Positions 667 through 60,023 of a DNA stretch of 64,000 bases are shown piece after piece (positions within the stretch are counted from its first letter, which is position 1; each line of letters opens with the position of its first letter). A program made the position numbers and the translations under genes. The notes under the pieces were generated by a model, which worked only from the letters and a program-made list of their open reading frames with translations, ran no database searches and had not been told where the DNA came from. Source of the stretch: Inonotus obliquus (Eukaryota > Basidiomycota > Agaricomycetes > Hymenochaetales > Hymenochaetaceae); assembly GCA_032164295.1 (NCBI GenBank), contig JAJHTX010000002.1, positions 2,232,001 through 2,296,000 of the forward strand. Reading direction: 5' to 3'.

Positions 667-724
667 CCGGGGTAGTTTCGATCGGCGTTCCTAATCGAAT
701 CAAAATTTCAGCACAATCCTTTCA
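1..724 (-). mobile_element. LTR-like element with ORF, copy 1 (truncated by window edge)
   Basis: This is the same sequence as the right part of the element at 52632-54197, in the same orientation, so only the last 724 bases of a roughly 1.57-kb element are visible. It ends ..CCTTTCA at 724. The next five bases, TTGCC (725-729), continue into unit U. In uninterrupted copies of unit U (reverse strand near 2560-2580) the sequence runs ..ATTGCCTGACTCG.., so this copy is inserted inside unit U and TTGCC should also precede its hidden left end. Strand is given for the encoded frame. Confidence 0.8.
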
Positions 725-729
725 TTGCC

Positions 730-1402
730 TGACTTGACTGGGCATTGCTTGGCTTCCCCTCCGAGTCGGATCGATGGCCTCCTCCGAGATCGAAGCAGCG
801 TACGGCGGACTTGATTCATTTCCCAACCTTCCTCTCGACGTAGATCTCCGAGGGCGTGGTCTCGACCTAGCACACGTTACGAACTCCGGTACAGGAGCGG
901 ACCATCGGTATCAACACCGGTATCGTCGGTATCGACGCATGGCAGTTCCGAAGGGCATACCGTCAGACTGGGAGCTTCGACCATGATCCAACTCTTCGCA
1001 GCAACGTATGGCAGACCGATCGTAGCTTTGTGAGCCTTTCCCTCTGGTATGGGCTGTCGAGGGCGTAGTACCGACTAGACGTGGACTATTAAGCGTCGGT
1101 ATCAGGATGGGTGGACGGTACGGTATCGGTATCATCGGTATCGAAGTCTGGTGGTTCGGTACTGTGATGGATGATGGGCGTAGGGATTGGTGATTCGATA
1201 TTGGCGCAGAAGTCTGGCTAAACGTATGCAGGACCAGTTCTCAATCGTTCTTAGCCTTGTCGAATCGCAGAAGCCTCGTACTTTGTTGGAACCGCAGGCG
1301 TAGATAGGACGGCAGAAGTACCGTGGTCCGAAGAGAAGTAAGAAGCGGTAGAATCGCAGAATTAAGCCCATATTGATCGTAGCCTCCGGTATTACTCTTT
1401 AG
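730..1402 (-). repeat. Unit U, partial copy (inverted relative to the copy at 1908-4131)
   Basis: The stretch matches 57853-58534 on the same strand and 1908-2580 and 55196-55880 as reverse complement. Its terminus ..GGTATTACTCTTTAG at 1402 is the same end as CTAAAGGGTAATAC.. at 1908 and 55196. Its distal part is cut by the LTR-like element ending at 724. It is rich in GGTATC/GATACC words and has no coding frame of note. Confidence 0.8.
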
Positions 1403-1907
1403 CGGAATCATTTTGTTCCTCATTTTCCGCAGTTTTAAAACCATCCTTTCTCAGCATGAAGGACCTTCTATTTCTACTCGCCCTGCTAGGAACCAGTTCT
1501 ATTCCAAGAAACGGCCATCTCCTCACCACGACAGTATTCAGAAATCCCGCTGCAAGGATTCTCCAGCCCCTTCTTGCAAGACTCCAGCTATCTTGAAAGC
1601 CGAGCTACAGTGGATACGACACCGTGAGGCTCAACTAGCTGCCTGCAGGAGAGAAGACATTTACGTTGAGAAAGAGTACTACGAAGAGATATGCTGCTAT
1701 ATGCGAGAAATGGAGGTCAGTCGTTGAAAAGTGACTTGCTTATGTGACTCGCTCCCATTCTAAATGCTAAGTGTCAATGCATAGGACTACACAATGGGAA
1801 TCAAACGGCCTCGTCTCGTCGACTTTCTTATCGAGATTCATTTTACTTTCCGACTTTGTCCTGAGACTCTTTACCTTACTATGAACATTGTTGACCGATA
1901 TGTTTTG

Positions 1908-4131
1908 CTAAAGGGTAATACTGGAGGCTACGATCGATATGGGCTTAATTCTGCGATTCTACCGCTTCTTCCAATTAACAATACTTCTGCGATTCTTCTT
2001 ACTTCTCTTCGGACTATGGTACTTCTGCCGTCCTATCTACGTCTACGGTTCCAACGAAATACGAGGCTTCTGCGGTTCGACAAGGCTAAGACCCATGCAT
2101 TTAGCCAGACTTCTGTGCCAATACCGAATCACCAATCCCTACGCCCATCTTCCATCACAATACCGAACCACCAGACTTCGATACCGATGATACCGATACC
2201 GTACCGTCCTCCCATCCTAATACCAATGCTTAATAGTACGCCCTCGACAGCTAATACCAAGGGAAAGGCACACAAGCTACAATCGGTCTGCCATACATTG
2301 CTGCGAAGAGTTGGATCATTGTCGAAGCTCCAAGTCCGACGGTCTGCCCTTCTGAACCGCCGTGCATCAATACCGACGATACCGGTGTTGATACCAATGA
2401 TCCACTCTGGTACCGAAGTCCATGACGTGTGCTAGGTCGAGACCACGCCCTTGGAGATCTATGTCGAGAGGAAGGTTGGGAAATGAATCAGGTCCACCAT
2501 ACGCTGCTTCGATCTCGGAGGAGACCATCGATCCGACTCGGAGGTGAAGCCAAGCAATGCCCAGTCGAGTCAGGCAATGCGTACCAATCGATATTGAGGG
2601 AGTACCCCAATGCCAAGATTAGGTTGTACCAACATATCAACATCGGAGCACGCTGTCTGATCGCTCGAAAGATGCCCAGACTGTGTTAGGATGGTCGAGG
2701 TGGCGGTGCATGCTCGAGGCCTGTTCTCACAAAGATCGCCTGGTTAAACCAAGACAACCTCTACACCGTCTTAAGGGAGAGTACACAGTCGTCGGCGACG
2801 TATGTCTAAGGTGATGAGCCTTGAGTAATGCACGTGTCTAGGAACAGTATATGACTAAGACGTCGTGGTGGTAAGTAGATTGAATAAACTAAGTAAGTAC
2901 AAGAGAGGAATACCTAAGATGTCGTGGTGGTAAGTAGAAGAGTTGAGTGGGGAAGACGAGACAAGATCTATCTACTTATATACACATGAGATGTGGGAAG
3001 GTATTACTCTAAGAGGGTGCTGCGCAGCAGCATAACAATATAAACAAATAAACAACGGGGGCTGACGAGTCAGCAAGAATGAGTAAGGGTGAGTAAGCGT
3101 CGTCGGGGTTGGGGCGGAATTAGTAATGCAGTATTAGTAATGTATCGGGATGGGGCGGAGGGAGTCATAAGGTATTAGTAATGAAAGGAAATTAGTAATG
3201 TAATGGAATATGAAAAATAAGGAAAGATGAAAAAGGAAAAGCGTTCTTACAGACTGACGCCGCACGGATCATGATACCAGAACAAAGGTAAATCAGGATG
3301 ACACACTTGAGAAGACGACAGGGCCATCGCCAGGAGCGCCCATGCGGTAGTTTGAGACACGTCCTTATTTTAGCGCTGGTCGACGTTGGTACTGCCACCC
3401 TACCTCGGTATCACTCGTTGTGAGTTTTCATTGGGTTCTTGTCTCGTCCCACCCTATTCTTAGCTACCCCCTGATAAAACTTCTTATTCATTCATCATCT
3501 TATGTTTCCCCTGATTATATTTTTACATTCAATTCGATCTTATGTTCCCCTTCTTGTACCGGATTGTGGTACGATTCGACTTGTAAAAACTCCCCATTTG
3601 GTATCTTGAATGGCTACGGTATTATGGTATTTATAGCCTGCATGTTCTACTGTAGCAAACCAGCTAATCTGAGAGGAACTTCCAGAGTGAAGGTCCGGGT
3701 TTTGCTCATCTCGTTCAAGCCCCCATTCGTTTGTCTCGTCTCATAGTCGCCGGTATCGATACCGGTAGTCGTCTATATTGTCTTTGTCATCCTTGCCTCT
3801 CATCTCACAACTAGTCCTATCAGAAACACCCCCTCTGCTCGTCTTCTCTACTGCTTCGTTCTCTCTACCGCGATACCGGACACCAAATGACTCGGTATCG
3901 ACGGATTCATCTCGGTATTGATCGTCTCCTGATACTTCATCTCTTGAGCGGTCACCTAGAGCCCCCTGTACTCATCAATCCAGCCAGGCCCTACTATCTC
4001 TCTTGACGACTTGTCTGTGACAGTACGACTTAGTACCGCCATGTACCAGCCCTCCCAACGCACCTAAATCGTACCCCCCTCGTCCGGTACTTCTGATACC
4101 GGCCGCATTCTCGCACATTCATCGTGTCGTA
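1908..4131 (+). mobile_element. Unit U, full-length copy inserted in the cyclin gene
   Basis: Starts CTAAAGGGTAATAC and ends TCTCGCACATTCA, the same two ends as the copies at 55196-58620 and 56829-58534. Without the solo LTR at 2684-3251 it is about 1.65 kb. It has no terminal inverted repeats beyond chance and no frame above about 110 codons, and is rich in the palindrome GGTATCGATACC (for example near 3750). No clean target duplication was found: TTG precedes and TCG follows. Removing it leaves the cyclin frame in phase. Confidence 0.75.
2684..3251. mobile_element. Solo LTR with 5-base target duplication
   Basis: A 568-base insertion TGTTAGGATGG..GTTCTTACA lies between two GACTG copies (2679-2683 and 3252-3256). 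The paralogous unit U near 56031 has the uninterrupted site with a single GACTG (..GATGCCCAGACTGACGCC..). TG..CA ends and a 5-base duplication are typical of LTR retrotransposons. Inside, a 20-plus-base block with GTCGTGGTGGTAAGTAGA occurs twice (about 2856 and 2915) and TATTAGTAATG words recur near 3120-3205. No internal coding region remains, so this is a recombined solo LTR. Confidence 0.88.
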
Positions 4132-7830: not shown

Positions 7831-10653
7831 TTATACAACGTCGAAGGAGCCTTTCTTCAAGCGAAGAACATTCAACTGCACTGACGGCCGCTTGGGGTAT
7901 CTGCGAGTCAAAAGTTTTTTCCTCGGTACCCTCGAGATATTCGAAACGGATTCCAATTCCACCGGTTTCCCTGCTTCAATTTTACGTGCATATGCTTCAT
8001 AATCCGCGTCATCCTTGTCCATCACAACCGTGACCAGATCCTTGGTCGCAAACTTACCCCATCGCTTCCCTGCTTCCAATGCTCTGAATTTATGGAAGAA
8101 TATCTGTGGATCGGACGGGTCAGTGATGCCTCGGTTGCTCGGCATGGTGCTTACGGACTTCTTCACCTTGTCTTGCAGGCTCGGTGAAGTTGATCAGGAG
8201 AGCATAATATCGTGCGTCGAATTTTCCGGTCACTGTTTGAATGGCATTCGTCATCATCGCTTCCTTGTTCCAATAGACACGAGCTTACCCATAATTAAGT
8301 TGGTCTGATATAGATTCGAATGATCCTTTTGATAGTGGTCAAGGATATTTTTTGCGTTTTTCTTGAACCACTCCCCTGCATCACACATGCCAACCATGTC
8401 CAGCTTGTACGCTTTGGCATCCTCAACACACATGTACGACCTGTTTACACCCATTGAGATCAGCAACGGGTAGCTTTTCCTGTCGATGGATATTCATCAG
8501 CGATGTATCAACCCGGCTCGACAGAAACGAGTAAATTACTTGACATCCTTCCGGCTCCCTTTCCTCGGTGCAGGGTTTGGTCTACGCAGCTTGGTCTTCA
8601 CTATTTTGACAGGTCCGAGTGGTTTCTCGCTGATCGGATTGGGCAGCCGGGAATTAAACAACCGGACAAACCGACCAGAGGAATCGATGTATCCAACATC
8701 ACATATTTCGCATTCGGTAGGATTCCACAGCGGTTCGTTATCTACATACGTGTGTCAGTTAGCGTTCCATTATCGTCCCTGTGGCTCGACGGTGCTACGA
8801 CAACGTACATCTCTCGCCAATAAAATTCAGGCTGGTCGCAAATATGTCCGCGACCTTATCTCTCGGACGTGGTTCTGTCTGTGTACCGGAATCCTTGTAC
8901 TCTGGTCGCAGAAGGACTGCTGCAGGTCCTTCAAGTGGGATGAGATTGGAGCTCTGAGATCCGGAGCGACTCTCTCTCGTTCCACGAGGAGTTGTGTCTC
9001 TGGATCTCTGAGATACGAGTCTGTCTTTGCTCGCCCGACGGGACGGTGCTTCTGGTCCTCTGCTGGAGCTATGAGATCTGAGGCGGCCTCTGCTTGCTTG
9101 ACGAGATCTGGTTGGTTTTCTCGGTTGTCTGGGCTGACCATGTTTGCCGTTACCGGGGGATGTGGGGCGACTTCTAGATGGAGGGCTTCTACTCTGTTGG
9201 CTTTCTTTTCTGCCTCGACCCTTCTGGCCTGCTAACGAGGATAGTTTTGCCTCAACTTTATCTATGCGTTCCAAGAGCTTGATGACCCCATCCTTGAACT
9301 CTTGTGTGGGTGAATGCTCTTGAATCATCCGCTTAACTTCCGCATCAAGTTTGTCCTCATCCTCCTGTGTTATCGTATGTTTGCTTAATACCGGATTCAC
9401 AAGGTCTTCTGATAGCCTGACTATTTGTGGCAACATTACGGATATAGTTTCATTAATCTCCGACGTTAGTTTCAAATTCTCCATATCGGCAAATAGCTAC
9501 GAGTTCCAGACCAATGAGTTTGGTTGATTGATCGCTGAAGATATTTATACAGACATACGTGAAGTCTTTTAGTTTTGAAGACAATCATTCTCGCTCGACG
9601 TCGAGTGTTATCTGCAATTTCTTCGCGCTTAATGAATTGAAGTATCGTTCTCTGATTATAATCGGCCAAAATCTTCGAGCGTATGAAATCACAATAGCTG
9701 AAATGGACCGCGTATAGGTGAGATGACAATGGAAGCATTTCGCGGGGTACGCACTCGACTATGGATATGTAGTATTTCTTCATTTTGCCCAATAATTCTA
9801 CCCGCACTTTGTCAATGGTACTGGAACCGATCGTATCTATTATGATTCCCCTGACTTGCTGAAATTCATCCACACAGTCCTCTAAAGCTAAACGTGCCAG
9901 TTCTCTGTTGTGCTGCTCATATCAGTGTTGTGAGCTCGCACCTCTGTATATCACGACGGACATACCTGAACTTTAAACAACGACTCCAACATAAGGTGCA
10001 CAACCCCTGCGGTACTTGCTAATACAAGTCCCTCTTCTGGTTCTTTTCCAATTCTCGACGCTCTGAAAAGGGCCAATGCAGCGTCTATAGACAGTGGAAG
10101 GACACGATTCCTGCCCTTCATCTTGCTACGTATCATCTGATACATTCTCTTATGATGTTTTTGATTTTCTACGCCATATGTTTCACGTCGTATTACTTCA
10201 ACCACTGTCTGATAATGTTCTCGGTTTCTTAATACATCCTCGCCAGTCTTGATGCATTCTGCAATAAGTTTCTGGTAGCGAAGTCAATCAGGTCCGCGGA
10301 AGGGCACATCGGCAGGTACTAACATTAATGATTATTTCTTCATCGTGTTTGCGCTGCCTTAGTGATAATTTGGGTACACTTATACTCGTAAACGGTAAAT
10401 GGGTTTTCTTGCGACGCTTCGCTTTATCCCCCTCTGGTCCCCGCTCTGCTACACTGGGAACGAGGGGATATGTGAAAGAAACTTCTCTTTTGGTCTTGGG
10501 TCGCTTTTTCGTTTGGCCTGCTTCCAGAGCAGATTTTCGTCCTGCCAGGTCTTCCTCAACAGAATGAAAGGAAGATTCGGATCGTACAGACAGAGTATGA
10601 CTGGACGAGGAGGGTGGGCTATGTGAGATATCTCTGGACCTTTCCTCAGCCAT
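7831..10653 (-). CDS. Unknown fungal protein, tandem paralogue 1 (9 exons, about 786 aa)
   Basis: I do not recognise the family. Exons read by hand: 10653-10324, 10271-9966, 9912-9755, 9697-9559, 9496-8809, 8741-8540, 8479-8289, 8232-8159, 8103-7831; they sum to 787 codons including TAA. The product has a Ser-rich basic N-terminus, an alpha-helical middle (LSIDAALALFRASRIGKEP; LEDCVDEFQQVRGIIIDTIG), a strongly basic RS/SR-rich stretch (about residues 380-480, SRQASRGRLRSHSSSR) and a conserved C-terminal module: LWNPTECEICDVGYIDSSG, SYMCVEDAKAYKLDMVGMCD, DARYYALLINFTEPARQ, RWGKFATKDLVTVVMDKDDA. The donor of intron 8 (GTCCGT) is weak but is the only one keeping frame. A TATATAAAAC motif sits about 75 bases upstream of the ATG. 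The neighbour at 11169-14417 is a duplicate. Confidence 0.75.
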
Positions 10654-11168
10654 ACTGGACTGTCAGAGGGGCATGGTCACTAAAGACAGACTGTATGCGA
10701 TAAGCCCTTACTTTGACCGGCTGGCACGTTTTATATAGAAATCTCTTATCAGTAACCGCGCAAAGTTGAGGCACGCGTATCGGAGGTAAGATCACGCAAT
10801 CACAGCCTTTTTCAGAAGTAGCTACACACGTGCACATTATGTAAATTTCTCTATCTTGTCTTGGTAAAGGTGAGATTTGATTTTTCATTCACTCCTCACG
10901 CATCACTCTCTTCAATCCATTGTACATACTGCATCCACTCTGGATAAATAGCAAGATATCTCTGATTCTGGATTGTTGCCCCCAAATTTACAAATACCGG
11001 GGAAACTAAGGCATGAACACAGGACGACAATCGATGTTCGCAACTTAACAGTATGTAGAAATGTTTGACACTCCAGGAACAAAATGGCGCTTGCGGCGCT
11101 TGGGTATTACTACGTACTAATAGTAGTACAAGCTGTGACTATAGGTAGTACCAACTTTACTTTTTCCC
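10654..11168. promoter_or_regulatory. Upstream region of paralogue 1 / downstream of paralogue 2
   Basis: This 515-base spacer separates the tandem paralogues. It holds ATTTCTATATAAAAC on the minus strand near 10731-10743, a plausible TATA element for the gene starting at 10653. Nothing else was recognised. Confidence 0.4.
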
Positions 11169-14100
11169 TTATACAACATCGAAGGAGTCGTTTGTGCCAT
11201 TCGTCAACTTCAAGCGAAGAACATTCAACTGCACTGACGGCCGCTTGGGGTATCTTCTAGTCACAGGATATTTCCTCGGTACCCTCGAGATATTCGAAAC
11301 GGATTCCAATTCCACCGGTTTCCCTGCTTCAATTTCATGTGCATATGCTTCATAATCCGCGTCATCCTTGTCCATCACAACCGTGACCAGATCCTTGGTC
11401 GCAAACTTACCCCATCGCTTCCCTGCTTCCAATGCGCTGAATTTATGGAAGAATATCTGTGGATCGGATGGGTCAGTGATGCCCCGGTTGCTCGGCATGG
11501 TGCTTACGGACTTCTTCATCTTTTCTTGCACGCTCGGTGAAGTTGATCAGGAGAGCATAATATCGTGCGTCGAATTTCCCGGTCACTGTTTGAATGGCAT
11601 TCGTCATCATCGCTTCCTTGTTCCAATAGACACGAGCTTACCCATAACTAGGTCGGTCGGATAATATAAATTCGAATGATCCTTTTGATAGTGGCGAAAG
11701 ATCTGTTTTGCGTTCTTCTTGAACCACTCCCCTGCATCACACGCTCCAACCATGTTCAGATTGTGCGTTTTGACATCCTCAACACACATGTACGACCTGT
11801 TTTTACCCCGCGAGATCGGCAACTGGTAGCATTTCCTGTCGATGGATATTCATCAGCGATGTATCAACCCGGCTCGACAGACGGTAAATTACTTGACATC
11901 CTTCCGGCTCCCTTTCCTCGGGTCAATAGGGTTTGGTCTACCCAGCTTGGTCTTCTTTATCTTTATCTTGACAGGGACGAGCAGGTCGATCTTCTCAACC
12001 TTGTCCCTGATCGGATTGAACAGCCGGACAAACGAACCAGAGGAATCGATGTATCCAACATCACATATTTCGCATTCGGTAGGATTCCACAGCGGTTCGT
12101 TATCTACATACGTGTGTCAGTTAGCGTTCCATTATCGTCCCTGTGGCTCGACGGTGCTACGACAACGTACATCTCTCGCCAATAAAATTCAGGCTGGTCG
12201 CAAATATGTCCGCGACCTTATCTCTCGGACGTGGTTCTGTCTGTGTACCGGAATCCTTGTACTCTGGTCGCAGAAGGGCTGCTGCTGCAGGTTCTTCAAG
12301 CGGGATGAGATTGGAGCTCTGAGATCCGGAGCGACTCTTTCTCGTTCCACGAGGAGTTGTTTCTCTGGATCTCTGAGGTACGAGTCTGTCTTTGCTCGCT
12401 CGACGGGACAGTGCTTCTGGTCCTCTGCTGGAGCTCTGAGATCTGAGGCGGTCTCTGCTTGCTTGACGAGATCTGGTTGGTTTTCTCGGTTGTCTGGGCT
12501 GACCATGTTTGCCGTTACCGGGGGATGTGGGGCGACTAGATGCAGGGCTTCTACTCTGTTGGCTTTCTTTTCTGCCTCGACCCTCCTGGTCTGCTGCTAA
12601 CGAGGATAGTTTTTTATCTATGCGTTCCAAGAGCTTGATGGCCTCATCCTTGAACTCTTGTGTGGGCGAATGCTCTTGAATCATCCGCTTAATTTTCGCA
12701 TCAAGTTTGTCCTCGTCAACCTTATGGCTCCTTAATACCACCTCCACAAGGTTTCGTAGGTCTTCTCTTAGCCCCTCAACCTGTGACGCTAATTCGGATA
12801 AAGATTCCTTATCCTCTTGTATCTCTTCTTTTAGCTTAAGTATATGTGACAATATTACGGATAAAGATTCCTTATTCTCCGCTGATATTGTCAAACCCAG
12901 CAAACTGCTAAATAGCTACGAGTCACAGACCAATAAATTTGGTTGATTAATCGTTGAAGATATTTATATGGACATACGTGAAGCCTTGCTGTTTTGAAGG
13001 TAATCTGTCTCGCTCGACGTTGAATGTCATCTGCAGTTTTATCGCGAGTGATGAATTGTTTTATCTTGCTTTTGTTAAGTTCGGCGACAAGCTGGCGGTG
13101 TATGACATGACAATAGCTGAAATGAACCGCGTATAGGTGAGATGACAATGGAAGCATTTCGTGGGGTACTCACTCGACTATAGAATTGAAGTATGTCTTC
13201 AAACTTGCGATTAGTTCTTCCCGTACTTTGTCAATGACACTGGAACCGATCGTATCTATTATGATTTCCGCGACTTGCTGAACTTCATCCACGCAGTCCT
13301 CTAAAGCATAAAGTGCGTTCTGTCTGTTGAGCTGCTCATGTCAGTGTTGTGAGCTCGTACCTCTCTAGAACGAGATGGACATACTAGAATTAGTCTCCAC
13401 GCGTCCAAGCAAAGGTGCAGAAACCCTGCGACAGATGCGATAATATTTCCCTCTGGTGTTCCAGTTCTCGACGATCTGAAAAGGGCCATCGCAGCGTCTA
13501 AACCAAGAGGAAGGGCATACTTTTCGGTGAGTTTTGGAAACCTGTCTTTCGCCTGTTGAAACCAGGTGTCATACTCATCTGCCCACACGGACTTGCCAAT
13601 TTTAATACATCTATCAATAAGGGTCTGGTATCGAAGTCAATTAAGTCCGCGGAAGGGAGTATCGACAGGTACTAACATCAATTTGCCGCTCTCGCACTTC
13701 TTCATCTTGGGTCGATGGCTTCCGAGTCAAGTCGGGTGCACTTGCACTCTTAAACTTAAATAATGATAATAATTTTCCTCTTTCCCTACTCGTTTTAATA
13801 GCACTATCCCGAGATGAAGGGTGAGTTACAGGCATCGAGTATATGCTATCGGTAGAAGGCGTTCCGGGATGAAGTGACACTGGACTAGTGTTCTTTAGGC
13901 TGAAAGAAACTTGTCTACCGGGAAATTTGGGTCGTCCCACTTTTTTCGGATTTTCCCCAGAAGAATGGAGCTCCTCGTCGGAAGAATCAGGCGCAAGTAG
14001 AGCCCCACTCGCCTCAGACGGTGGTGCAACTGATGAGGATGCAAATGATGAGGATGCAACTGATGAGGATGAGGATGCAACTGGTGAGGATGCAATTGAT

Positions 14101-14417: not shown

Positions 14418-14618
14418 TATGGATTGTCAAGGTCAAGGGTTGCCGAAGGATGGTTGTATGCGCTACTGAGTTGAGGAATGGAATGCGACAGACAGGTTTT
14501 GCTTTGACTGCTCGCTTTAAGACTCACGAAAAATAAAAGCAATATTGTGGCACGTGTGGTTACGTATATGCAATGTTCCTGAACACGTGACTCTTTCACT
14601 TACGTCATCTCGCGGCGA

Positions 14619-15268
14619 CAGGTCCTTTAAACAGTACCGTTCCTTTGAACACCATGACTTTTCTCACTCAATTCTTCACTTATCAACTCATAAAAATGCA
14701 AGTACTAAAGAATAGTATGTATCACTGAGTCTGCAAATTTACAAGAAATTTGAGCAAGCTGTTGAGTCTAGAAAAATTATACAGTGCTGATATTTGGTGA
14801 AATTCACAGACCTGAGTCGAAACCAATTCCTCTTGCAATTTCCCCTGTCATTTAATTGTATAGATAACCTGATACTCTAAAAGTATGCCACATATTATAC
14901 TTTCACTCCAAGTTTCAGGGAGAAACTGCTGCTCAATCAATTAATATTGTAAGAAAATCTCAAGAGTGTGATAGTCAAAATGATCGGCGTGCTGAGAAAA
15001 TAAGATATCTCGGAAATTCATTACAACCGGAGTGTAATTGATATTGGCGTGACATTACGTCACAAGGTGTTCAAAGGAGTCGTTTTCCGTGACAGGGGCC
15101 CTTGTTTCTTTCCAGGTCCATATCTATTTTTCTAGCACACCTTCCGGCTTAGAGGAAAATCAGCGTGTGTCTCCTATAGTATACTCCATGTAAATGTATT
15201 TTAATTTCTGAAAAGTTGTGTGTGGAAAGACCTGGGGGCAAGTTTGTAATTGGTGTTTAAAGGAAGTC
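14619..15268 (+). mobile_element. MITE, family M, copy 1 (upstream of SREBP gene)
   Basis: About 650 bases matching 54498-55173 and the two halves around 19106-21385 as reverse complement. Ends carry TCCTTTAAACA inverted repeats (GGTCCTTTAAACAGTACC at left, GGTGTTTAAAGGAAG at right). Internal landmarks shared by all copies are TTCCTTTGAACACC, TCTAGAAAAATTATACAGTG and GTTGTGTGTGGAAAGAC. No coding frame. The copy at 54498 has a TA target duplication, pointing to a Tc1/mariner-type source. Confidence 0.8.
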
Positions 15269-48007: not shown

Positions 48008-50724
48008 TTACACATTATCGTCTTTTCGAGAAGAGCAACTCGAACAGCTGCTCATTCTCGCAAACAAGCCTTTCTTCTCGCTCCTACTATCATCCAGCCT
48101 CCTTTCCTGCTTGTCATCGAGCGACATACTCTGCATACCGTCCGCAATTGCATCCGCGGATTTGGATGTGACAGATGTAGGAGTACGATCAACATCCACC
48201 ACGCGAAGCACAGCCGATCCTTCCAAGACACGGAGTACCTTGTCCGTATCCCAGGTACGTGCCGGAGGTGCCGGGCCAGATGAAAATCCCGGAGACGGAG
48301 AAAATGCCTCCCAGAAAGCACCTCCCAGCTTCTGCAATAAAGTCTGGCTCGCGAGCGTTGCTAGCATCGCATTCGTCTGAGCTAGCTCCCTTTCCCTTTG
48401 TTGGTTTGGGCGTCGGTTTTGCTGCAACGCAGCCCGATCCTTTTCGCCCACTCGTGGACTTGCTGGAGGTGTTGGTAAGCCGTGGTGCCCATGTCCGTAA
48501 GGTAGACCTTTGTTCGACAGCAAGGACCCGAGCGGCTTGCCCGTCCCAGTTGCATTTGTCGGGCTACTTGGCGTACGTGAACTAGCAGACGCAAAGTACT
48601 GCGGACGCAAACTGCTCGCCAGGCCCGACAGGGAGCTGTTTGCATTCTCGGAAAGTGAAGGAGACGAGTAGGGGGATGGGTAAACGGCTGCAGCATTGTG
48701 AGAGCCCATTGGACGAGGACATTCACGTTGAGCGTGCTGTACCTGGGCCGCCATGCGGCTCCAAAGTTGCATTCGATACGCATCAAGCGTCCTAAGCGTG
48801 AACGGATTCACGTCGGCGAAGCCAAGCGCATCAAACGCATTTTGCGTTCCGTGCCAATCACTTCCGCCCTTCGCGCCATTATTGTTACCATTTCCATAAA
48901 GCTGAGAAAGCACTTGACTCGGCACCTGCTGTTGCTGTTGCTGTTGCTGCTGCTGTGCGTGAATGTTTAATGCTGGATTAATGTTCTCCTTCTGTCGATC
49001 CTCCGAACCGAAGACTGAGGTGCCCGTCTCCGGAATGATTGCAGTGTGCACAGACGTTATTCCACCCCCGAGGCTACCAAAGCCACCAGCCTGGCCACCC
49101 CAGAAGGGAGATGCGCCGAGACGCGGACTCGTCGGAAGATCTTTGTGTGTATTTGGCTTTATTATGTTACCATTGCTGTTCGGCTTGCTACTGCTGCTCG
49201 CATTCATGATGCTTGATGCTGACGAGCTCGAGCTGGGAAGTGTGGCAAGGCTAGAAAGTGGAGAAAGCGGTGATAAAGGTGCAGGTGGCGGGAGCATCGG
49301 ACTTGCACGGCCTTCAAGAATTGCTTTTTTCAAAGCCTCAACCTCCTGACGCAATGCGCTGTTCTCGGATTTGGTACTCCCAAGCTCTGCCCGAATGGCT
49401 TCGATCAGGCGGTCACGGTCGGCAATATCACCTTCAAGCGTTGAGATGTACTCTGAAACAAGGATGAATCAGTATCCGCTAAGAAATATTCTCCGAGTAA
49501 AGCGACAGAGAAGCTGTTGCATGTAGACTGAGGGTATGAAAGAGAGATAGGTTGAAAATCAAAACGTGGAGTGGTGGAACCTCAGATGTGGATCGATGAA
49601 GGATCACGAGGGTAGGGAAAAGCTGGGGGTAAAGGCTAGCTGATCTATAACATACCTTTCCTGCGAATTCGGAAATTGCGCGCGCTGATTTTGTTGCGCA
49701 ACTGACGTTTCTCTTTACTGCTCATCTTTGCATATTCCTCAGGACTTGGACGCCAATCATCAAGATCTTCGTCCTCGATGTCGTGGTCTTTATCTTTCGA
49801 TCCCCTCTCCTTCCCGGAAAACTTGCTAGAATCTCTTGGCCCCCCTCCACTGTTACCCAAGCCCCTGCCCACGGAGGCAGTTGGGCCATCGACAGAAGAT
49901 AAGGACCCAAAAATGCTCTGTGGACCAGACAAAGCCACTTTCTTTGAGACGCCACCAGATTGAAGCGTGCCACGGCGAGCTTTGCCCTTGCCTCCAACCT
50001 TGACGGGTGTGATGAGAAGGCCATGTGAAGCCTCCCCGTCTTCATCTGCTTCGGCTCCATTTTCCGAGTGCGTGTCTGTTGCAGACGTCGCCGGTGTCAT
50101 GGGTGTACGAACAAGCTGAGGATCAATTGCGGAGAACGTAAAAGAGGCATTGCCGTTGGCGCTAGTAGTAGACGCGGGCGTGACTGCAGACACGCTTGCA
50201 TCAGACGAAGTGGCACCAGTGCTGCCCAACGACGAATCAAGCGACGCAAATAAATCAAACGGCGAGTGTGAGAGGCCCGCAAGAGGGTCAGTACCAGGCT
50301 TGAAATAGTCGCCACCAGCATTGATGCCCAACGTGAACATTGATTCCTCCTCGATCGTCGCAAGAGAACCAAAAGCGGACGAATCATAGTTCATACCCAT
50401 GCTGATATCGAAGGTGGGAATCGCGTCTGCTTGGGGAGGTGTTTGAAGATTTGCAAACGAGTTGGTAGGGGAGTCGGTACGGGCCTCAGACGATGCACGA
50501 GAAGAGAAGGAAGTAGAGTTGGCGGTGCTGTGAGCATGTACAGCGTCCGCTGGTGTAGTAGCAGATGATGCCGAAGCCGAGAGGCCTGCGTCATCATTGC
50601 CGGACAAAAGATCGAGATTTAAAAAGTCTTCAACCTGAAAAGAGGAAGAAGAAGATGTGGAGGGATTGTCGTACATGAGACTAGGATGATGAAGAGGATG
50701 TTCAAGGACGGCGGGGTGAGGCAT
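48008..50724 (-). CDS. bZIP transcription factor
   Basis: Two exons, 50724-49656 and 49452-48008, with a 203-base intron (GTATGT..TTTCAG). Start ATG 50724 (MPHPAVLEHPLHHPSL); the frame runs upstream to a non-ATG codon only. Exon 1 ends in the basic region RQLRNKISARNFRIRRK (about residues 340-356, N-x7-R/K pattern NKISARNFR). Exon 2 opens the leucine zipper EYISTLEGDIADRDRLIEAI and continues SENSALRQEVEALKKAIL. Both flanks are Ser/Ala/Pro-rich, probably activation regions, with a 10-Gln run near 48930-48960 and an IFGSL..KVALSGP basic patch. It binds DNA as a dimer in the nucleus; targets unknown. Confidence 0.9.
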
Positions 50725-51424
50725 GGTTGAGATGGGCAAGATGGTGGTAAGTATGAAGGGAGGAGGCGAGTCTGATTCTGTAAGCGAAGATGAGGGAAGA
50801 TGAAGCTTATGTAATTAGATGGCGACTCCCAAGAAGGAAATGTGACCGAATTCCGAGAGGACACGCACAAAGCGCGTTTCGGCAGAGTCATTCATTTGGC
50901 AATTGGGTACTGCGCTTTCATTCGCCTCTCTCATTCTCACCTATTCCATCTCTTTCTATCGCGTTTCATTCTCTTTCCACGGTGTCGGTGTTGAGTCGAC
51001 ACTGTTAAACGTCTTGTCTCAATTACCTCAATGGAGATGATCGCCACATCGGGTACTAGTAGTGGCGGCTAGACTCAAATTGTAGATTACCTTATTTGGA
51101 ACGCCGATCTCAGCAACTGTAACAGTGCAGTGTAGCCACAGGGGGCTGCAAGTACATGACTATGACTGTAGGCTTGCATCGAAACGAGTATGTATATAAA
51201 GTACGCTATTCAGCAGGTGAACTCAGCTATTTTATGCGCATAATGATGTCCTCTTCGCTCGCAAGTGGTGCTCTTCACCAACCCAAGCATTCCACGACTG
51301 ACTTGCGAAGCGTATTGATATTCATCTGTATCGAAAGACACAATCTCTCTTTTACGAGTCTATCCATCCAGATCTGTAAGCTTTATGTGGAAACACAGTA
51401 CTATTTTTTCTATCGTTCTTGGTG
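50725..51424. promoter_or_regulatory. Upstream region of bZIP gene, to edge of transposon nest
   Basis: 700 bases with TTCATTCGCCTCTCTCATTC-type pyrimidine tracts near 50920-50980. No credible gene. It ends at CTTGGTG (51418-51424), the flank of the 835-base element. Confidence 0.4.
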
Positions 51425-52259
51425 TGGTGACTGGCACGGCCTATCAAATTTTCATGAGTTCCCACGGTCGCTTCCTCCGCTAAGCAAACCCAAATTTGAA
51501 AGGCGGTGTCGATCTTCGTGTCTCAGCTTCATTCAGAACAGTAAACTCCCCCGCGAGTGTATATAGAACCCAGTAACAAGTCCAACAGGTTATAAATATA
51601 GTAAATGATGTATAAACTGGCTGCATTGCACAAAATTACAACAGATAACCTGTTTAGTGATGACTATGCCAAATTGTATGCATTTTCTGAATGAAATCCA
51701 AATATCACGTGATCTTGAAATTGCAAGGCCGGGCTCATTTTCTGAAGTGTTCCTCCCACTGAAACACCCAATACACCCCACCTTGAATGCAATAACTTAC
51801 CTTTAAACCTACATCCAAATGCAATGTCTAAATCTCATCAGAAAAAACTACACAAGTCCTAATTTGTTGTGATTTCAGTGGCATATATGCATCCAGGCTC
51901 CTTGAATACATAAGTTTCTTCCATACTTCTTCCACATACATAATATTTAAGAGATTTTGAACATTTCTGTCAAAAAAATTTTGAAATATTTTCTCTGCTG
52001 CGGAGATATGCACAAAAAAAGCGAATATCTCAACCAATATTTGACAAAAATTTGATTTTTTCTGACAGATTTGTTCTACACATTAAAAGACATTTTTCTG
52101 ATATTTTTTGGGATTTTTCATGAAGTTGTGGAGGGCTGAGTATCCTCCACAATGTCAAAACCAAAAAGTGAGACACTGAAATCGACGCGTCCATTGCTGG
52201 GAAGAGCTAACCGAGACCGTGGGAACTCACAGAAATTTGATAGGCCGTGCCAGTCACCA
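51425..52259 (+). mobile_element. 835-base TIR element E, copy 1
   Basis: Begins TGGTGACTGGCACGGCC and ends GGCCGTGCCAGTCACCA; inverted repeats run about 45 bases, to GAGTTCCCACGGTC / GACCGTGGGAACTC. Copy 2 (58716-59550) is the same length in opposite orientation and appears identical over most of its length, including two small frames (63 and 69 codons at 51590-51781 and 51828-52037, minus strand) whose translations match exactly. No transposase; non-autonomous. Left flank CTTGGTG, right flank TAGGCAC: not a duplication within this copy. Confidence 0.88.
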
Positions 52260-52299
52260 TAGGCACGGCAGGCAAATCAGGATGGAGGTAAGGTCAGAA

Positions 52300-52580
52300 T
52301 TTTAAATGTTTTTTTGGCTGTCATTTTAAATGCCGGTAAGTATATTAGTACGTGATTGATATTTATAGTGTCAGTAGGTTTGATATGCTTACAGATATTT
52401 AAAATAACAGCGCGAAAGCCATTTTAAATTTCTTTCAGGTAGTACAGAATATCTACCCGACTGATATTTAAAATATCAATCTGATTGATTTCCTTATTGA
52501 TATTTAAAATATTGACACGTAGTTTATATCTATAATATCTTATGGGTCGATATGCTTACTGGCATTTACAGCACTTTGCA
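52300..52580. repeat. Second GATATTTAAAATATC array
   Basis: Six or more near-copies of GATATTTAAAATATC / CATTTTAAATG words inside element N, resembling 5005-5285. TACTGATAC/TACTGGCATTTA motifs and ATGCTTACTG occur in both arrays, suggesting the left array is a decayed relative of element N. Confidence 0.6.
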
Positions 52581-52631
52581 TTAGTAATGACACTCTCCAG
52601 GATTTTGGGGAGAGAAGTAATGCATCATATC

Positions 52632-54197
52632 TGTTAGAAAACGCTCGCCCTAAAGGGACTATACAGTAACCACAGTAGGACGGTCCGCAGTGTTACGGGT
52701 TCGGCGATGCTTTTCTAAGAGTTTCCGGAGCCTACTCGGTTTTCACAAGCAGGGCAGATTCCCAAGTATACTAAGCGTTGCCTCAGACACTCTCGTTTAC
52801 TAATCAAGTCGGGCCTCAACCTCGTTGACAGACTAGTAGGACAGGGTCAACTGCCGTTCATAAGCTTCCCTAGTCGGTGGGCAACTAATCAATCGTTCCA
52901 CGCCGTAGGGTAAGAGAGGTTAAGCAGATTAGGTGGTCTTCAGATTAGAAGCTAGATGCCTAAGAGGACTCGATGTACAAGACGATCAAAAGAAAGATGG
53001 GGAGCTACGGTCTAAGTCTACAACTATTTATACCTTTTCCTCATGTTGTGGACGGACCACTTCCTACGCTCCGTAGTTCCTACTCTCGATCTGATTCGTT
53101 ATTCTAGCTTCCAAACTCGTCTGGTATTCCTATTGTTCTGCTGCGGATTGACTCATCGACTGCGCACTGTGCAAGGCGATGACTCGGCGTTGACTCATCT
53201 TGACTTGAACTGAATTGAAACCTATGCTCGGGGTCGGCCTTGTGCTACGCCCTGTGCATAGAGTGAGTCAGTGAGTGAGTCATTGAATGCGTGTTCGTAT
53301 GCCATTGGTTTTGCATGGCTGCGCCGTAGTTAAAGTTCACTCGTCCGCAGTTGCTCGTGCATTTAAGGAATTCCGTCGGGGTTCCGTTGTATAGCATCTG
53401 GGGCTATGAAGGCTGTGATTTGCTTGTCGCCTCGGGACTCTTGTTCGGGGCCATCAAGTGTGATTCGACATCGGATATCATCGTGGGAAAACCAAGGTGG
53501 TTTGACGTAGGTGCCTATGGCGATGAGTAGCCGTACACTTCATCGAGTATCGTTCGAAGGTATTCTCCAGCCTAGGTATAGGTCTCCTTGTAGTCGAATA
53601 GCTTTGCAGTATGCCCATAGTTCCCTGAGTGTGTTTGCAACCCATGCCGCTGTTATCGGTGAGCGGCGGTTCGTAACATAGTCTGCACTGATCTCCACGA
53701 ATGTGCTTGGGCACTCGAGTGCTAATATGTCGTGGATTCCTACTATTGTCCAGTGCGTCTTTGGTTGCATGCCTATTGCCGTATCCATTGCTATTGTTGA
53801 CCTCGTGCGATTTCGAACGACCTCCGGGGGATTGTGGTATTCTCGATAAGCTGTTGCTCGTTCGCTGGACACATGATACGTTAACATGCCCGTTGCCTCC
53901 CGTAGTATTATCTTGTGTAGGTCTTCGATGATCTGTCGCACTCTTCTGCATTTATAGCAAGCCGTTGGAGGCTGCTGTACCTGCTGCATCGTTTGCGAAG
54001 GTTTAGTGTGATCGTCGGGATTAGTGTTGCTAGCCGATACTTCTTGATCGTCGGCTTCGGATTGTATTAGATTCGCGTGTTCTCCGCTTCTCGCTGTCGA
54101 TCCTGATTGTCTCCGGCTAGTGAAATTAACCGGTCCCATCCGAGGTAGTTTCGATCGACGTTCCTAATCGAATCAAAATTTCAGCACAATCCTTTCA
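52632..54197 (-). mobile_element. LTR-like element with ORF, copy 2 (complete)
   Basis: 1566 bases from TGTTAGAAAACGC to CACAATCCTTTCA, flanked by ATATC on both sides (52627-52631 and 54198-54202). TG..CA ends and a 5-base duplication are those of an LTR or LTR element, but I find no internal direct repeat that would split it into two LTRs. It could be a long solo LTR with its own frame, or an unusual short element. Copy 1 ends at 724. The coding strand is minus. Confidence 0.75.
53363..54139 (-). pseudogene. ORF of LTR-like element, copy 2, one premature stop
   Basis: Starts at ATG 54139 (MGPVNFTSRRQSG) and runs 199 codons to TGA at 53540-53542; the same frame then continues 58 codons (SVRLLIAIGTYVKPPWF .. 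IQRNPDGIP) to TAA at 53363. Copy 1 has CGA at the stop position, so a single C-to-T change in a CpG broke it. No domain recognised; see copy 1. Confidence 0.65.
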
Positions 54198-54497
54198 ATA
54201 TCATGTGATATTTTGGACTTTGAAAAGAAAACAACTGTCTGCCTGTGGCGGTTTGAGAGGCTGTTGTCATAGGCTCTGATGACTTGAATTTATAAGGAGA
54301 AAGATTGACATGCCGATCAATGATGACATATGACAGAGGCTCATAAACTCACCCTCCGCTGCATGACTTTCTTCACAAAGTTTAAAGTATCACATGATAT
54401 GATATATTACTTCTCTCCCAAAAATCTTAGGGAGTGCCATTACTAATGCAAACAGCTATAAAATGACAGCAAAAAAACATTTAAAATTCCAACCTTA

Positions 54498-55173
54498 CAG
54501 GAAAATACCATTCCTTTAAATACCAATTAAAAACTTGCCCCCCTGTCTTTCCACACACAACTTTTCAGAAATTAAAATACATTTTTATGGAGTATACTAT
54601 AGGAGACACATGCTGATTTTTTTCCAAGCCGGAAGGTGTGCTGGAAAAATAGATATGGATCTGGAAAGAAATAAGCTTAAGGGCCTCTGTCACAGAAAAC
54701 GACTCCTTTGAACACCTTGTGATGTAATGTCATGCTAGTATCAATTACACTCCGGCTGTAATGAATTGCCGAGATATCTTATTTTGTCAGCATGCCGATC
54801 ATTTTGACTATCACACTCTTGAGATTTTCTTACAATATTAATTGATTGAGCAGCAGTTTCTCCCTGAAACTTGGAGTGAAAGTAGACTATGAAGCATACT
54901 TTTAGATTATCAGGTTATATATACAGTTAAATAACAGGGGAAATTGCAGGAGGAATTGGTTTCAACTCAGGTCTGTGAATTTCACCAAATATCAGCACTG
55001 TATAATTTTTCTAGACTTAACAGCTTGCTCAAATTTCTTGTAAATTTGCAGACTCAGTGATACATACTATCCTTTGGTTCATGCATGTTTCTGAGATGAT
55101 AAGTGAAAAATTGAGTGAGAAAAGTCATGGTGTTCAAAGGAACAGTACTGTTTAAAGGACCGGTATTTTCCTG
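54498..55173 (-). mobile_element. MITE, family M, copy 3, with TA target duplication
   Basis: 676 bases, CAGGAAAATACC..GGTATTTTCCTG, bounded by TA (54496-54497 and 55174-55175). The other arm of element N at 52288 shows the unoccupied site (GGAGGTAAGG). The interior is the inverse of 14619-15268. Confidence 0.85.
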
Positions 55174-55195
55174 TACCTCCATCCTGATTTGCCTG

Positions 55196-58100
55196 CTAAA
55201 GGGTAATACCGGAGGCTACGATTGATACGGGCTTAATTCTGCGATTCTACCGCTTCTTCCAATTAACAATACTCCTGCGATTCTACCGCTTCTTACTTCT
55301 CTTCGGACCAGTCCTATCTACGCCTGCGGTTCCAACGAAGTACAAGGCTTCTGTGATTCGACAAGGTTAAGAACAATTGAGAACTGGTCCTGCATGCGTT
55401 TAGCCAGACTTCTGCGCCAATACCGAATCACCAATCCCTACGCCCGTCTTCCATCACAGTACCGAACCACCAGACTTCGATACCGATAATACCGATACAG
55501 TACTGTCCACCCATCCTGATACTGATGCTTAATAGTCCACGCCCTCGACAGCCCATACCAAGGGAAAGGCTCACCGGTCTGCCATACGTTGCTGCAAAGC
55601 GTTGGATCATTATCAAAGCTCCAAGTCCGACAGTCTGCCCTTCTGAATCGCCATGCATCGATACCGACGATACCGTTGTTGATACCGATGACCCACCCCG
55701 GTACCGAAGTTTGTGACATGTGCTAGGTCGAGACCACGCCCTCGGAGATCTACGTCGAGAGGAAGGTTGGGAAATGAATCAGGTCTGCCGTACACTGCTT
55801 CAATCTCGGAGGAGACCATTGATCCGACTCGGAGGCGAAGCCAAGCAATGCCCAGTCAAGTCAGGCAATGCATACCAATCGATATCGAGGGGCTCGAGCG
55901 ATCTCATTGATGCCCAGGGACGATCCCAGCGTACTGATTGGTACCAAGCGATAGAATACTCCATTGCCAAGGTTAGATTGTACCGACATGTCAACATCGG
56001 AGCACGCCGTCTGATTGATCAGTAGATGCCCAGACTGACGCCGCACGGATCATGATACTGGAACAAAGGTAAATCAGGATGATGCGCTTCTCCGGAGAAG
56101 GAGACGACAGGGCCATCGCTAGAAGCGCCCATGCGGTAGCTTGAGACATGTTCTTATTTTAGTGCTGGTCGACGTTGGTACCGCCACCCTACCTCGGTAT
56201 CACTCGTCGTGAGTTTTCATTGGGTTCTTGTCTCGTCCCACCCTATTCTTAGCTACCCCCTGATAAAACTTCTTATTCATTCATCGTCTTATGTTTCCCC
56301 TGGTTATATTTTTACATTTAATTCGATCTTATGTTCCCCTTCTTGTACCAGATTGTTGTATGATTCGACTTGTAAAAACTCCCCATTTGGTATCTTGAAT
56401 GGCTACGGTATTATGGTATTTATAGCCTGCATGTTCTACTGTAGCAAACCAGCTAATCTGAGAGGAACTTCCAGAGTGAAGGTCCGGGTTTTGCTCACCT
56501 CGTTCAAGTCCCCGTTTGCTCGTCTCGTCTCGTAGTCGCCGGTATCGATACCGGTAGTCGTCTATATCATCTTCGTCGTCCTCGCCTCTCGTCTCACAAC
56601 TAGCCCTGTCAGAAACACCCCCTCTGCTTGTCTTCTCTACTGCTTCGTTCTCTCTACCGCAATACCAGACAACAAACGACTCGGTATCGACGGATTCGTC
56701 TCGGTATCAATCGTCTCCTGATACCTCGTCTCTCGAGCGGTCACCTAGAGCCCCCTGTACTCATCAATCCAGCCAGGCCCTACTATCTCTCTTGACGACT
56801 TGTCTGTGACAGTACAACTTAGTACCGCTGAATGTGCGAGAACGCGGCCGGTATCAGAAATATCGGACGAGGGGGGTACGATTTAGATGTGTTGGGAGGG
56901 CCGGTACGTGGCGGTACTAAGTCGTACAGTCACAGACAAGTCGTCAAGAGAGAATAGTAGGGCCTGGCTGGATTGATGAGTACAGGAGACTATAGGTGAC
57001 TGCTCAAAAGGAGAGGTATCAGGAGACGATCAATACCGAGACGAATCCGTCGATACCGAGTCGTCTGGTGTCCGGTATCACGGTAGAGAGAACGAAGCGG
57101 TAGAGAAGGCGAGCTGAGGAGGTGTTTCTGATGGGACTGGTCGTGAGACGAGAGACGAGGGCGACGAAGACGAGAATGATGACTACCGGTATCGATACCG
57201 GTGACTACGAGACGAGACGAATGAACGGGGACTTGAACGAGATGAGCAAAACCCGGACCTTCACTCTGGAAGTTCCTCTCAGATTAGCTGGTTTGCTACA
57301 GTAGAACATGCAGGCTATAAATACCATAATACCGTAGCCATTCAAGATACCAAATGGAGGGTTTTTACAAGTCGAATCGTACCGTAATCCGGTACAAGAA
57401 ATGGAACATAAAGTCGAATTGAATGTAAAATTACAATCAGGGGAAACATAAGATGATGAATGAATAAGAAGTTTTATCAGGGGGTAGCTAAGAATAGGGT
57501 GGGACGAGACAAGAACCCAATGAAAACTTACGACGAGTGATACCGAGGTAGGGCGGCGATACCGACGTCAACCAGCGCTAAATTAAGGACGTGTCTCAAG
57601 CTACCGCATGGGCGCTCCTGGCGATGTCCCTGTCGTAGAAGAAGCACGTCATCCTGATTTACCTTTGTTCCGGTATCATGATCCGTGCGGCGTCAGTCTG
57701 GGCGTCTACCGGTCGATCGGACGGCGTGCTCCGATGTTGACGTGTCGGTACAACCCAACCTTGGCAATGGGGTACTCTACCGTTCGGTACCAATCAGTAC
57801 CCTGGGATCGTCCCTGAGCATCGCTCTAGCCCCTCGATATCGACCGGTACGCGTCGCCTGACTCGACAGGGCATTGCTTGGCTTCCCCTCCGAGTCGGAT
57901 CGATGGCCTCCTCCGAGATCGAAGCAGCATATGGCGGACTTGATTCATTTCCCAACCTTCCTCTCGACGTAGATCTCTGATGGCGTGGTCTCGACCTAGC
58001 ACACGTAACGAACTCCGGTACCGGAGCGGACCATCGGTATCAACACCGGTATCGTCGGTATCGATGCATGGCGGTTCGGAAGGGCATACTTCGACCATGA

Positions 58101-58620
58101 TCCAACTCTTCGCAGCAACGTATGGCAGACCGATTGCAGCTTTGTGAGCCTTTTCCTCTGGTATGGGCTGTCGAGGGCGTAGTATCGACTAGACGTGGAG
58201 TATTAAGCGTCGGTATCAGGATGGGGGGACGGTACGGTATCGGTATCATCGGTATCGAAGTCTGGTGGTTCGGTACTATGATGGAAGACGGGCGTAGGGA
58301 TTGGTGATTCGGTATTGGCGCAGAAGTGGACCAGTTCTCAATCGTTCTTAGCCTTGTCGAATCGCAGAAGCCTCGTACTTTGTTGGAACCGCAGGCGTAG
58401 ATAGGACGGCAGAAGTACCATGGTCCGAAGAGAAGTAAGAAGTGGTAGAATCGCAGAAGTATTGTTAATTGGAAGAAGCGGTAGAACCGCAGAATTAAGC
58501 CCATATCGATCGTAGCCTCTGGTATTACTCTTTACCGCCATGTACCGGCCCTCCCAATGCACCTAAATTGTACCCCCCTCGTCCGGTACTTCTGATACCG
58601 GCCGTGTTCTCGCACATTCA
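55196..58620 (+). mobile_element. Unit U, copy 3, split by an inverted copy
   Basis: From CTAAAGGGTAATACC (55196) to 56828, resuming at 58535 and ending TTCTCGCACATTCA at 58620; about 1.7 kb once the inner copy is removed. It preserves the empty site of the solo LTR seen at 2684. It begins flush with the right end of element N. Confidence 0.8.
56829..58534 (-). mobile_element. Unit U, copy 4, nested and inverted in copy 3
   Basis: 1706 bases, starting TGAATGTGCGAGAA and ending GGTATTACTCTTTA, i.e. the reverse complement of unit U. CCGC occurs on both sides (56825-56828 and 58535-58538) where other copies have it once (ACCGCCATG), so a 4-base target duplication is likely. With the outer copy it makes a palindrome with arms of about 1.6 kb. 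Confidence 0.8.
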
Positions 58621-58715
58621 CCGCCATGAGGAGTCAGGAAATTGAATCAAGTATTCCACATGACCATCATCTAATCGGGCATTCCCAGTCTAATCTAACT
58701 GTTTTCACCACCAAG

Positions 58716-59550
58716 TGGTGACTGGCACAGCCTATCAAATTTCCATGAGTTCCCACGGTCTCAGTTAGCTCTTCCCAGCGATCGATGTGTCGATTTTAGT
58801 GTCTCACTTTCTGGTTTTGACATTGTGGAGGATACTCAGCCCTCCACAACTTCATGAAAAATCCCAAAAAATATCAGAAAAATGTCTTTTAATGTGTAGA
58901 ACAAATCTGTCAGAAAAAATCAAATTTTTGTCAAATATTGGTTGAGATATTCGCTTTTTTTGTGCATATCTCCGCAGCAGAGAAAATATTTCAAAATTTT
59001 TTTGACAGAAATGTTCAAAATCTCTTAAATATTATGTATGTGGAAGAAGTATGGAAGAAACTTATGTATTCAAGGAGCCTGGATGCATATATGCCACTGA
59101 AATCACAACAAATTAGGACTTGTGTAGTTTTTTCTGATGAGATTTAGACATTGCATTTGGATGTAGGTTTAAAGGTAAGTTATTGCATTCAAGGTGGGGT
59201 GTATTGGGTGTTTCAGTGGGAGGAACACTTCAGAAAATGAGCCCGGCCTTGCAATTTCAAGATCACGTGATATTTGGATTTCATTCAGAAAATGCATACA
59301 ATTTGGCATAGTCATCACTAAACAGGTTATCTGTTGTAATTTTGTGCAATGCAGCCAGTTTATACATCATTTACTATATTTATAACCTGTTGGACTTGTT
59401 ACTGGGTTCTATATACACTCGCGGGGGAGTTTACTGTTCTGAATGAAGCTGAGACACGAAGATCGACACCGCCTTTCAAATTTGGGTTTGCTTAGCGGAG
59501 GAAGCGACCGTGGGAACTCATGAAAATTTGATAGGCCGTGCCAGTCACCA
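58716..59550 (-). mobile_element. 835-base TIR element E, copy 2
   Basis: Reverse complement of 51425-52259; ends TGGTGACTGGCACAGCC and GGCCGTGCCAGTCACCA. In element orientation its left flank is TAGGCAC and its right flank CTTGGTG, the mirror image of copy 1. Strand follows copy 1 as plus. Confidence 0.88.
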
Positions 59551-60023
59551 GTGCCTACAGTACAGTACTTTACGTAAGTCATGATTGCATTCAAGTTATT
59601 TGATTATTCTGAAGACCACTTCCTAAACTTCAGCCTGCAATATGAAACTTGTGCACTCGAGTAGCCTCCGGGGTTTACTCATCTTCTTGCTATGTTCTCT
59701 GATCTGGTAATACTAATAACATCATGTCTGAGCCTAGCCAGTTGCATGCCTCGCACACGCTACGTGATGGGTTTTTCTATTTTCATTCTGACTGTTTTAC
59801 AGTAGCAACCAGTAAGGTGATCCAGCCTCAACGCAACTCTCGAAAACAGCTACCTGGCAAGAAACTACTGAAACATCGCTTGACTAGTTGGAGATGAAAT
59901 ATCTCGATGGTATAGAAAGGTATAAGAAACAAGCGATTGGGAGACGCTCCTCCATAATCACTCCTCTTCCCCACTTTTACTTGCCAACACAGTCACCCGC
60001 CTTCCATCCTTCTCCCTAGTACC
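59551..60023 (+). promoter_or_regulatory. Upstream region of the membrane-anchored protein gene
   Basis: 473 bases. Pyrimidine-rich leader (CTCCTCTTCCCC.., CCATCCTTCTCCC) directly before the ATG at 60024. No other element recognised. Confidence 0.4.

Follow-up and report, generated by a model that had tools for sequence, protein, structure and literature searches.

Two inversions of Drosophila are the closest described counterparts of the locus reported here. The inversion 2z3 of Drosophila buzzatii was made by the transposon Galileo and shows exchanged duplications, as set out in the part of the report that deals with its breakpoints (PMC2775673). In Drosophila mojavensis, the inversion 2s lies between copies of BuT5, according to the corresponding section of a second report (PMC3355041). 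On the other hand, the discussion of mechanisms in the former report predicts that a hybrid-element insertion of the P type would also give exchanged flanks, although in this case between identical copies (PMC2775673). In the literature searched, the phrase "exchanged target site duplications" occurred only in PMC2775673 and PMC3355041, and a search on gene conversion together with swapped sites gave no match. The sections consulted of a report on the mating-type loci of Cryptococcus (PMC12510652) treat inversions and ectopic recombination, and exchanged duplications were not found in them.

Few sequence marks can expose an inversion from a single genome, and exchanged target duplications belong to these. 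However, such flanks cannot separate recombination from hybrid-element transposition, and the identity of the copies must therefore be checked too. Both kinds of evidence are considered here for a locus in which a 6.5-kb inversion between two copies of an element, E, is well supported by the sequence.

Two inverted copies of E and their flanks

The window, that is, the whole stretch of 64,000 nucleotides that was analysed, contains two copies of E in opposite orientation (E1 and E2, Table 1). The original prediction of two 835-base inverted copies around 6.5 kb was borne out by the repeat coordinates, which give arms of 835 nt each with 10 mismatches between them and a spacer of 6456 nt, and its outer limits, 51418-59557, proved to be exact when rechecked. 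Both copies (835 bp each) terminate in TGGTGACTGGCACGGCCTATCAAATTT, with one mismatch in one of the four ends, and both read as non-coding.

Table 1. Features of the inverted segment and its surroundings (positions in the window)
Feature	Position	Strand	Remarks
E1, element E copy 1	51425-52259	+	835 bp, non-autonomous, TIR TGGTGACTGGCACGGCCTATCAAATTT
E1 body	51425-52163	+	739 bp identical to E2 58812-59550
E1 tail	52164-52259	+	96 bp, 10 differences from E2 tail 58716-58811
E2, element E copy 2, inverted with respect to E1	58716-59550	-	835 bp
Inverted segment between E1 and E2 (well supported)	52260-58715	no strand	Exchanged duplications
t1, outer-left flank of E1	51418-51424	+	CTTGGTG
t1, inner flank of E2	58709-58715	-	CTTGGTG on - strand
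t2, inner flank of E1	52260-52266	+	TAGGCAC; AGG (3-bp duplication of F) plus CAC (first F bases)
t2, outer-right flank of E2	59551-59557	-	TAGGCAC on - strand; three terminal F bases plus AGG, apart from F
F left piece, MITE	52264-52568	+	3-bp duplications
F right TIR piece, interrupted by P	55177-55196	+	
F probable last bases and right 3-bp duplication	58625-58631	+	CATG plus AGG, putative
Repeat G, nested in the block	52632-54197	no strand	Also in loci L084 and L086
Repeat H, nested in right part of F	54511-55164	no strand	Second copy 14618-15265
P, large quasi-palindromic repeat	55197-58621	no strand	
Host DNA inside inverted segment	58632-58708	no strand	One genome match for 58600-58715; boundary rests on the reading of F

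In element orientation, the flanks are CTTGGTG and TAGGCAC for E1, and TAGGCAC and CTTGGTG for E2 (read by eye, with the coordinates rechecked). As had been claimed, they match across the copies and not within them: the self pairs of E1 and E2 agree in 1/7 bases each, whereas both cross pairs agree in 7/7, and this identity ends after exactly seven bases, with no one-base extension possible on either side. Equality of two random 7-mers of the window has a chance of 8.9e-5, and two perfect cross pairs one of about 1.6e-8, with either pairing scheme counted. As a control, flank pairs between different E-type elements were compared, and 5 of 612 matched; these five are the two exchanged pairs of E1 and E2 together with three that arise through one repeat abutting three other elements. 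Four unrelated flanks agreeing by coincidence are thus hardly credible: elements with mismatched flanks do exist (5/16, see below), but the double match refutes this explanation statistically.

Two other origins were considered and discarded. The outer flanks of 51418-59557, CTTGGTG and GTGCCTA, differ, which rules out a composite transposon, and the segments 51000-51424, 58600-58715 and 59551-60000 have one match each in the genome, which rules out a paralogous empty site elsewhere.

A real inversion could also have arisen through reversed-ends transposition, or through breakage and end joining near the E copies, and both processes produce inversions beside transposons, as stated in the review of mechanisms within PMC2775673. 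However, when derived by hand, reversed-ends transposition of two separate copies would leave a single matching cross pair and end joining none, whereas here both are perfect, so that either origin seems very improbable.

Target duplications of the E family and the end of element F

A search of the genome with E gave 90 matches from the 40 scored among 74 candidates, and 30 were made into loci. The flanks were compared in the 16 elements for which a single locus contains both ends, leaving out E1, E2 and three overlapping loci. A 7-bp duplication is perfect in 10 of these 16 relatives and agrees at 6/7 bases in one, while five have no match (L005 2/7, L008 2/7, L014 4/7, L018 1/7 and L024 0/7). 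The original prediction could have failed here, had the true duplications of E been of another length than 7 bases, and the ten perfect cases speak for that length. Of these five, L005 is degenerate at its right end, and for L008 the script had taken the end of an adjacent element as the partner; L008, L018 and L024 adjoin one common repeat, whose start is CCTTTCCTTCAACC. With 5/16 other elements showing no matching duplication, a mismatch within one element is nothing unusual in itself, and it is the match across copies that constitutes the rarity.

Several further features of this family were observed. In L007/L010 (C7:542380-544390), F and an 831-bp E-type element interrupt a copy of E at about position 263, and the outer 7-bp duplication of this copy is still perfect. 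On contig C5, an E element with the flanks CTCTGAG and CTTTGAG (6/7, by eye) is divided between L008 and L009; its division lies near that position too, with 18.5 kb between the parts. The E-type elements of L018, L024 and L027/L008 (contigs C9, C13 and C5) abut the CCTTTCCTTCAACC repeat, which begins exactly at their terminal CACCA (CACTA in L018) and perhaps inserts at the ends of E. In addition, the TIR-pattern matches listed, about 100 of 114, include many E-type elements that are about 831 bp long and have TGGTACC/TGGTGCC at their ends. What these share with E is confined to roughly the terminal 100 bp, and they make up a larger related non-autonomous family.

The target t2 has a second anchor in the element F. 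Copies of F in the genome start within one base of window position 52264, and a 3-bp duplication is found in 13 of the 14 two-ended copies (from 20 loci, the window's own included), the exception being L041, with AGTT on both sides. The sequence TAGGCAC can thus be parsed as T-AGG-CAC, namely one host base, the duplication of F and three bases from the start of F, so that t2 lies across the F end. The body of F adjoins E1, and the t2 beside E2 carries the terminal bases of F and AGG next to host DNA. This is the arrangement that an inversion would demand, and it is explained if E entered the end of F and was later parted from F by the inversion. As for the opposite end of F, it is probably the CATG-AGG just after the repeat P, a less sure reading of the sequence that assumes a 3-bp duplication for P.

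Contents and surroundings of the inverted segment

The inverted segment is nearly devoid of host sequence. The host-like, non-repeat DNA of the block amounts to about 84 bp (58632-58715, t1 included), and the remainder consists of F, G, H, P and smaller repeats. The repeat P is 84.8% complementary to itself over 3.4 kb (55197-58534) and is present in many genome copies (a first look gave 485 and 248 candidates, of which 40 were scored in each case); rearranged relatives of P also occupy the start of the window (1-4124). As for G, a copy of about 1.57 kb lies inside a P copy in L084 (L084:286-1859), with a repeated target of 6-7 bp, and in the window G is nested in a repeat other than P. One reading frame of G gave no families in Pfam and NCBIfam, nor did a second, overlapping G frame in NCBIfam, and the Rfam search gave no match. 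Elsewhere in the window, 7855-13123 holds a direct duplication of several kb, with a start-to-start distance of about 3.36 kb and 76-98% identity depending on the piece.

The block has as its neighbours what appears to be a bZIP gene of the - strand, whose first exon is near 49645-50814, and unassigned open frames of the + strand from 60024 onwards, and the inversion probably affects no gene. The assignment to bZIP rests on named matches and on a zipper that is visible by eye in 48008-49468. Within the best 120 of 495 matches of this frame, the top one has 60% identity, and the nearest named ones by score come from Phellinidium pouzarii, Rickenella mellea and Coniferiporia weirii, all Hymenochaetales, with 37-43% identity. 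Two frames of the gene searched separately against Pfam gave no families.

The exact inverted repeat of 739 bp raises the question of an assembly artefact, in which the true order would be the uninverted one and a wrong path would have been taken through the repeat. Reads shorter than 739 bp cannot separate the two paths, and a wrong path would produce exactly the swapped duplications observed. However, the genome of 36.07 Mb is assembled in 30 contigs, contig C2 reaches 4.36 Mb, and the window contains no N despite the 3.4-kb repeat with its hundreds of candidates. Megabase contigs that run through long repeats without N suggest that long reads lie behind the assembly, and an artefact appears improbable.

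Mosaic copies, mechanism and known inversions

The identity between E1 and E2 is that of a mosaic. Positions 1-739 show 0/739 differences and positions 740-835 show 10/96 (p = 2.6e-10 if the differences were evenly spread). Other body pairs of E, with at least 700 bp compared and including those of E1 or E2 with other copies, differ by 4.2-8.1%, and the later divergence between the bodies of E1 and E2 has an upper limit of about 0.4% (3/739). The difference between their tails, 10.4%, is the largest among the 21 tail pairs compared. With respect to 18 relatives, E1 has private tail bases at 768 and 771 and E2 at 740, 765 and 822, and for each of the remaining five tail differences the minority base is present in one to five relatives. 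Bases private to E1 and E2 jointly number 10/738 in the body and 0/96 in the tail (1.3 expected), a difference that is not significant. The CpGs are mutated in 6/8 cases in the tail and in 0/13 in the body (p 5e-4), which indicates that CpG decay contributes to the tail differences, and the four non-CpG differences between the copies are likewise found only in the tail (Fisher p 1.2e-4). Judging from these comparisons, the tails look like those of two copies that are old and separate, and the bodies look as if one had recently been copied over the other, so that E1 and E2 form a mosaic, though not a reciprocal chimera.

The inversion of 52260-58715, as originally predicted, is therefore supported by the 7-bp duplication length of the family, by a cross match beyond chance, by the location of t2 across the F end and by the mosaic copies. 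Regarding its cause, the prediction of recombination between inverted copies finds support, with a limit: flanks and mosaic both fit it, but the same footprint would follow from the hybrid-element transposition of a single copy, as treated in the discussion of mechanisms in PMC2775673. The best reading of the sequence, and a fairly probable one, is that two E copies of independent insertion recombined ectopically in recent time, with gene conversion; this would cover the flanks, the position of F and the mosaic with a single event. The starting point would be two independent insertions of E with opposite orientations, at CTTGGTG and at TAGGCAC, the latter target lying on the left end of an older F. 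Subsequently, and not long ago, a break in one E would have been mended with the other as template, through ectopic homologous recombination with crossover resolution. The crossover would flip the intervening 6.5 kb and exchange the inner duplications, and the accompanying gene conversion would homogenise positions 1-739 and leave the last 96 bp of each E unchanged. The order of these events, the occurrence of conversion and crossover as one event and the cause of the break are what we infer. Against recombination, a plain crossover would give two chimeras differing throughout, and the conversion must here span 88% of E and reach its extreme left end.

In a hybrid-element (alternative) transposition, a single E at CTTGGTG would be present on both sister chromatids, and the right end of one chromatid together with the left end of the other would insert at the nearby TAGGCAC. 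One step would thus create an inversion flanked by inverted copies with exchanged duplications, and the tails would diverge later by mutation or by conversion from another copy of E. A derivation by hand yields the same four flanks, the predicted exchange of duplications is indeed seen, and 739 of the 835 positions are identical between E1 and E2; moreover, the outcome is described in the relevant part of PMC2775673 as strikingly like that of ectopic recombination, except for the identical copies. However, this identity is contradicted by the 10 differences in the last 96 bp, with a crowding in the tail that an even spread would hardly give (p 2.6e-10) and with derived private bases in both tails, so that a second tail event from donors outside the compared copies would be needed. 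As the tails of E1 and E2 are not identical, recombination is favoured over a hybrid insertion, which appears rather unlikely, a later change of the tails being the alternative.

Ectopic recombination may, in a further and quite doubtful version, be recurrent, with E1, E2 and P forming a segment that flips repeatedly and both orientations segregating in the species. The ectopic repair would begin with a one-ended cut made in E by its transposase, or with a break at P, and it would invert the block and keep the E copies homogenised to their very ends.

The locus can thus be regarded as a Galileo-type inversion in a basidiomycete, a new instance of a known event, with no claim that published fungal cases are absent. 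With the inversion 2s between BuT5 copies it shares the exchanged target duplications, which in the section on that inversion also serve as evidence for ectopic recombination (PMC3355041); however, 2s involves 9-bp duplications, another element and a fixed inversion on a chromosome arm (PMC3355041). As for the hybrid-element insertion of the P type, in the form outlined in the first report, the flank pattern is shared, but E1 and E2 differ at 10 sites in the last 96 bp. The comparison with Galileo, of the P superfamily, concerns the 7-bp duplication, for which alone this superfamily was considered, and kinship with E is not implied. As the breakpoint sections of PMC2775673 describe for 2z3, the copies are oppositely oriented and mosaic, with exchanged 7-bp target duplications and transposons nested at the breakpoints. 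In that inversion, whose uninverted chromosomes were sequenced, the copies are reciprocal chimeras around the crossover (PMC2775673), whereas E1 and E2 are known from one chromosome and homogenised over 739 bp. Finally, 2z3 is cytologically visible, as that account indicates, whereas the E1/E2 inversion spans 6.5 kb, nearly all of it repeats, and represents a small and apparently recent basidiomycete case, anchored by the end of F inside the duplicated target.
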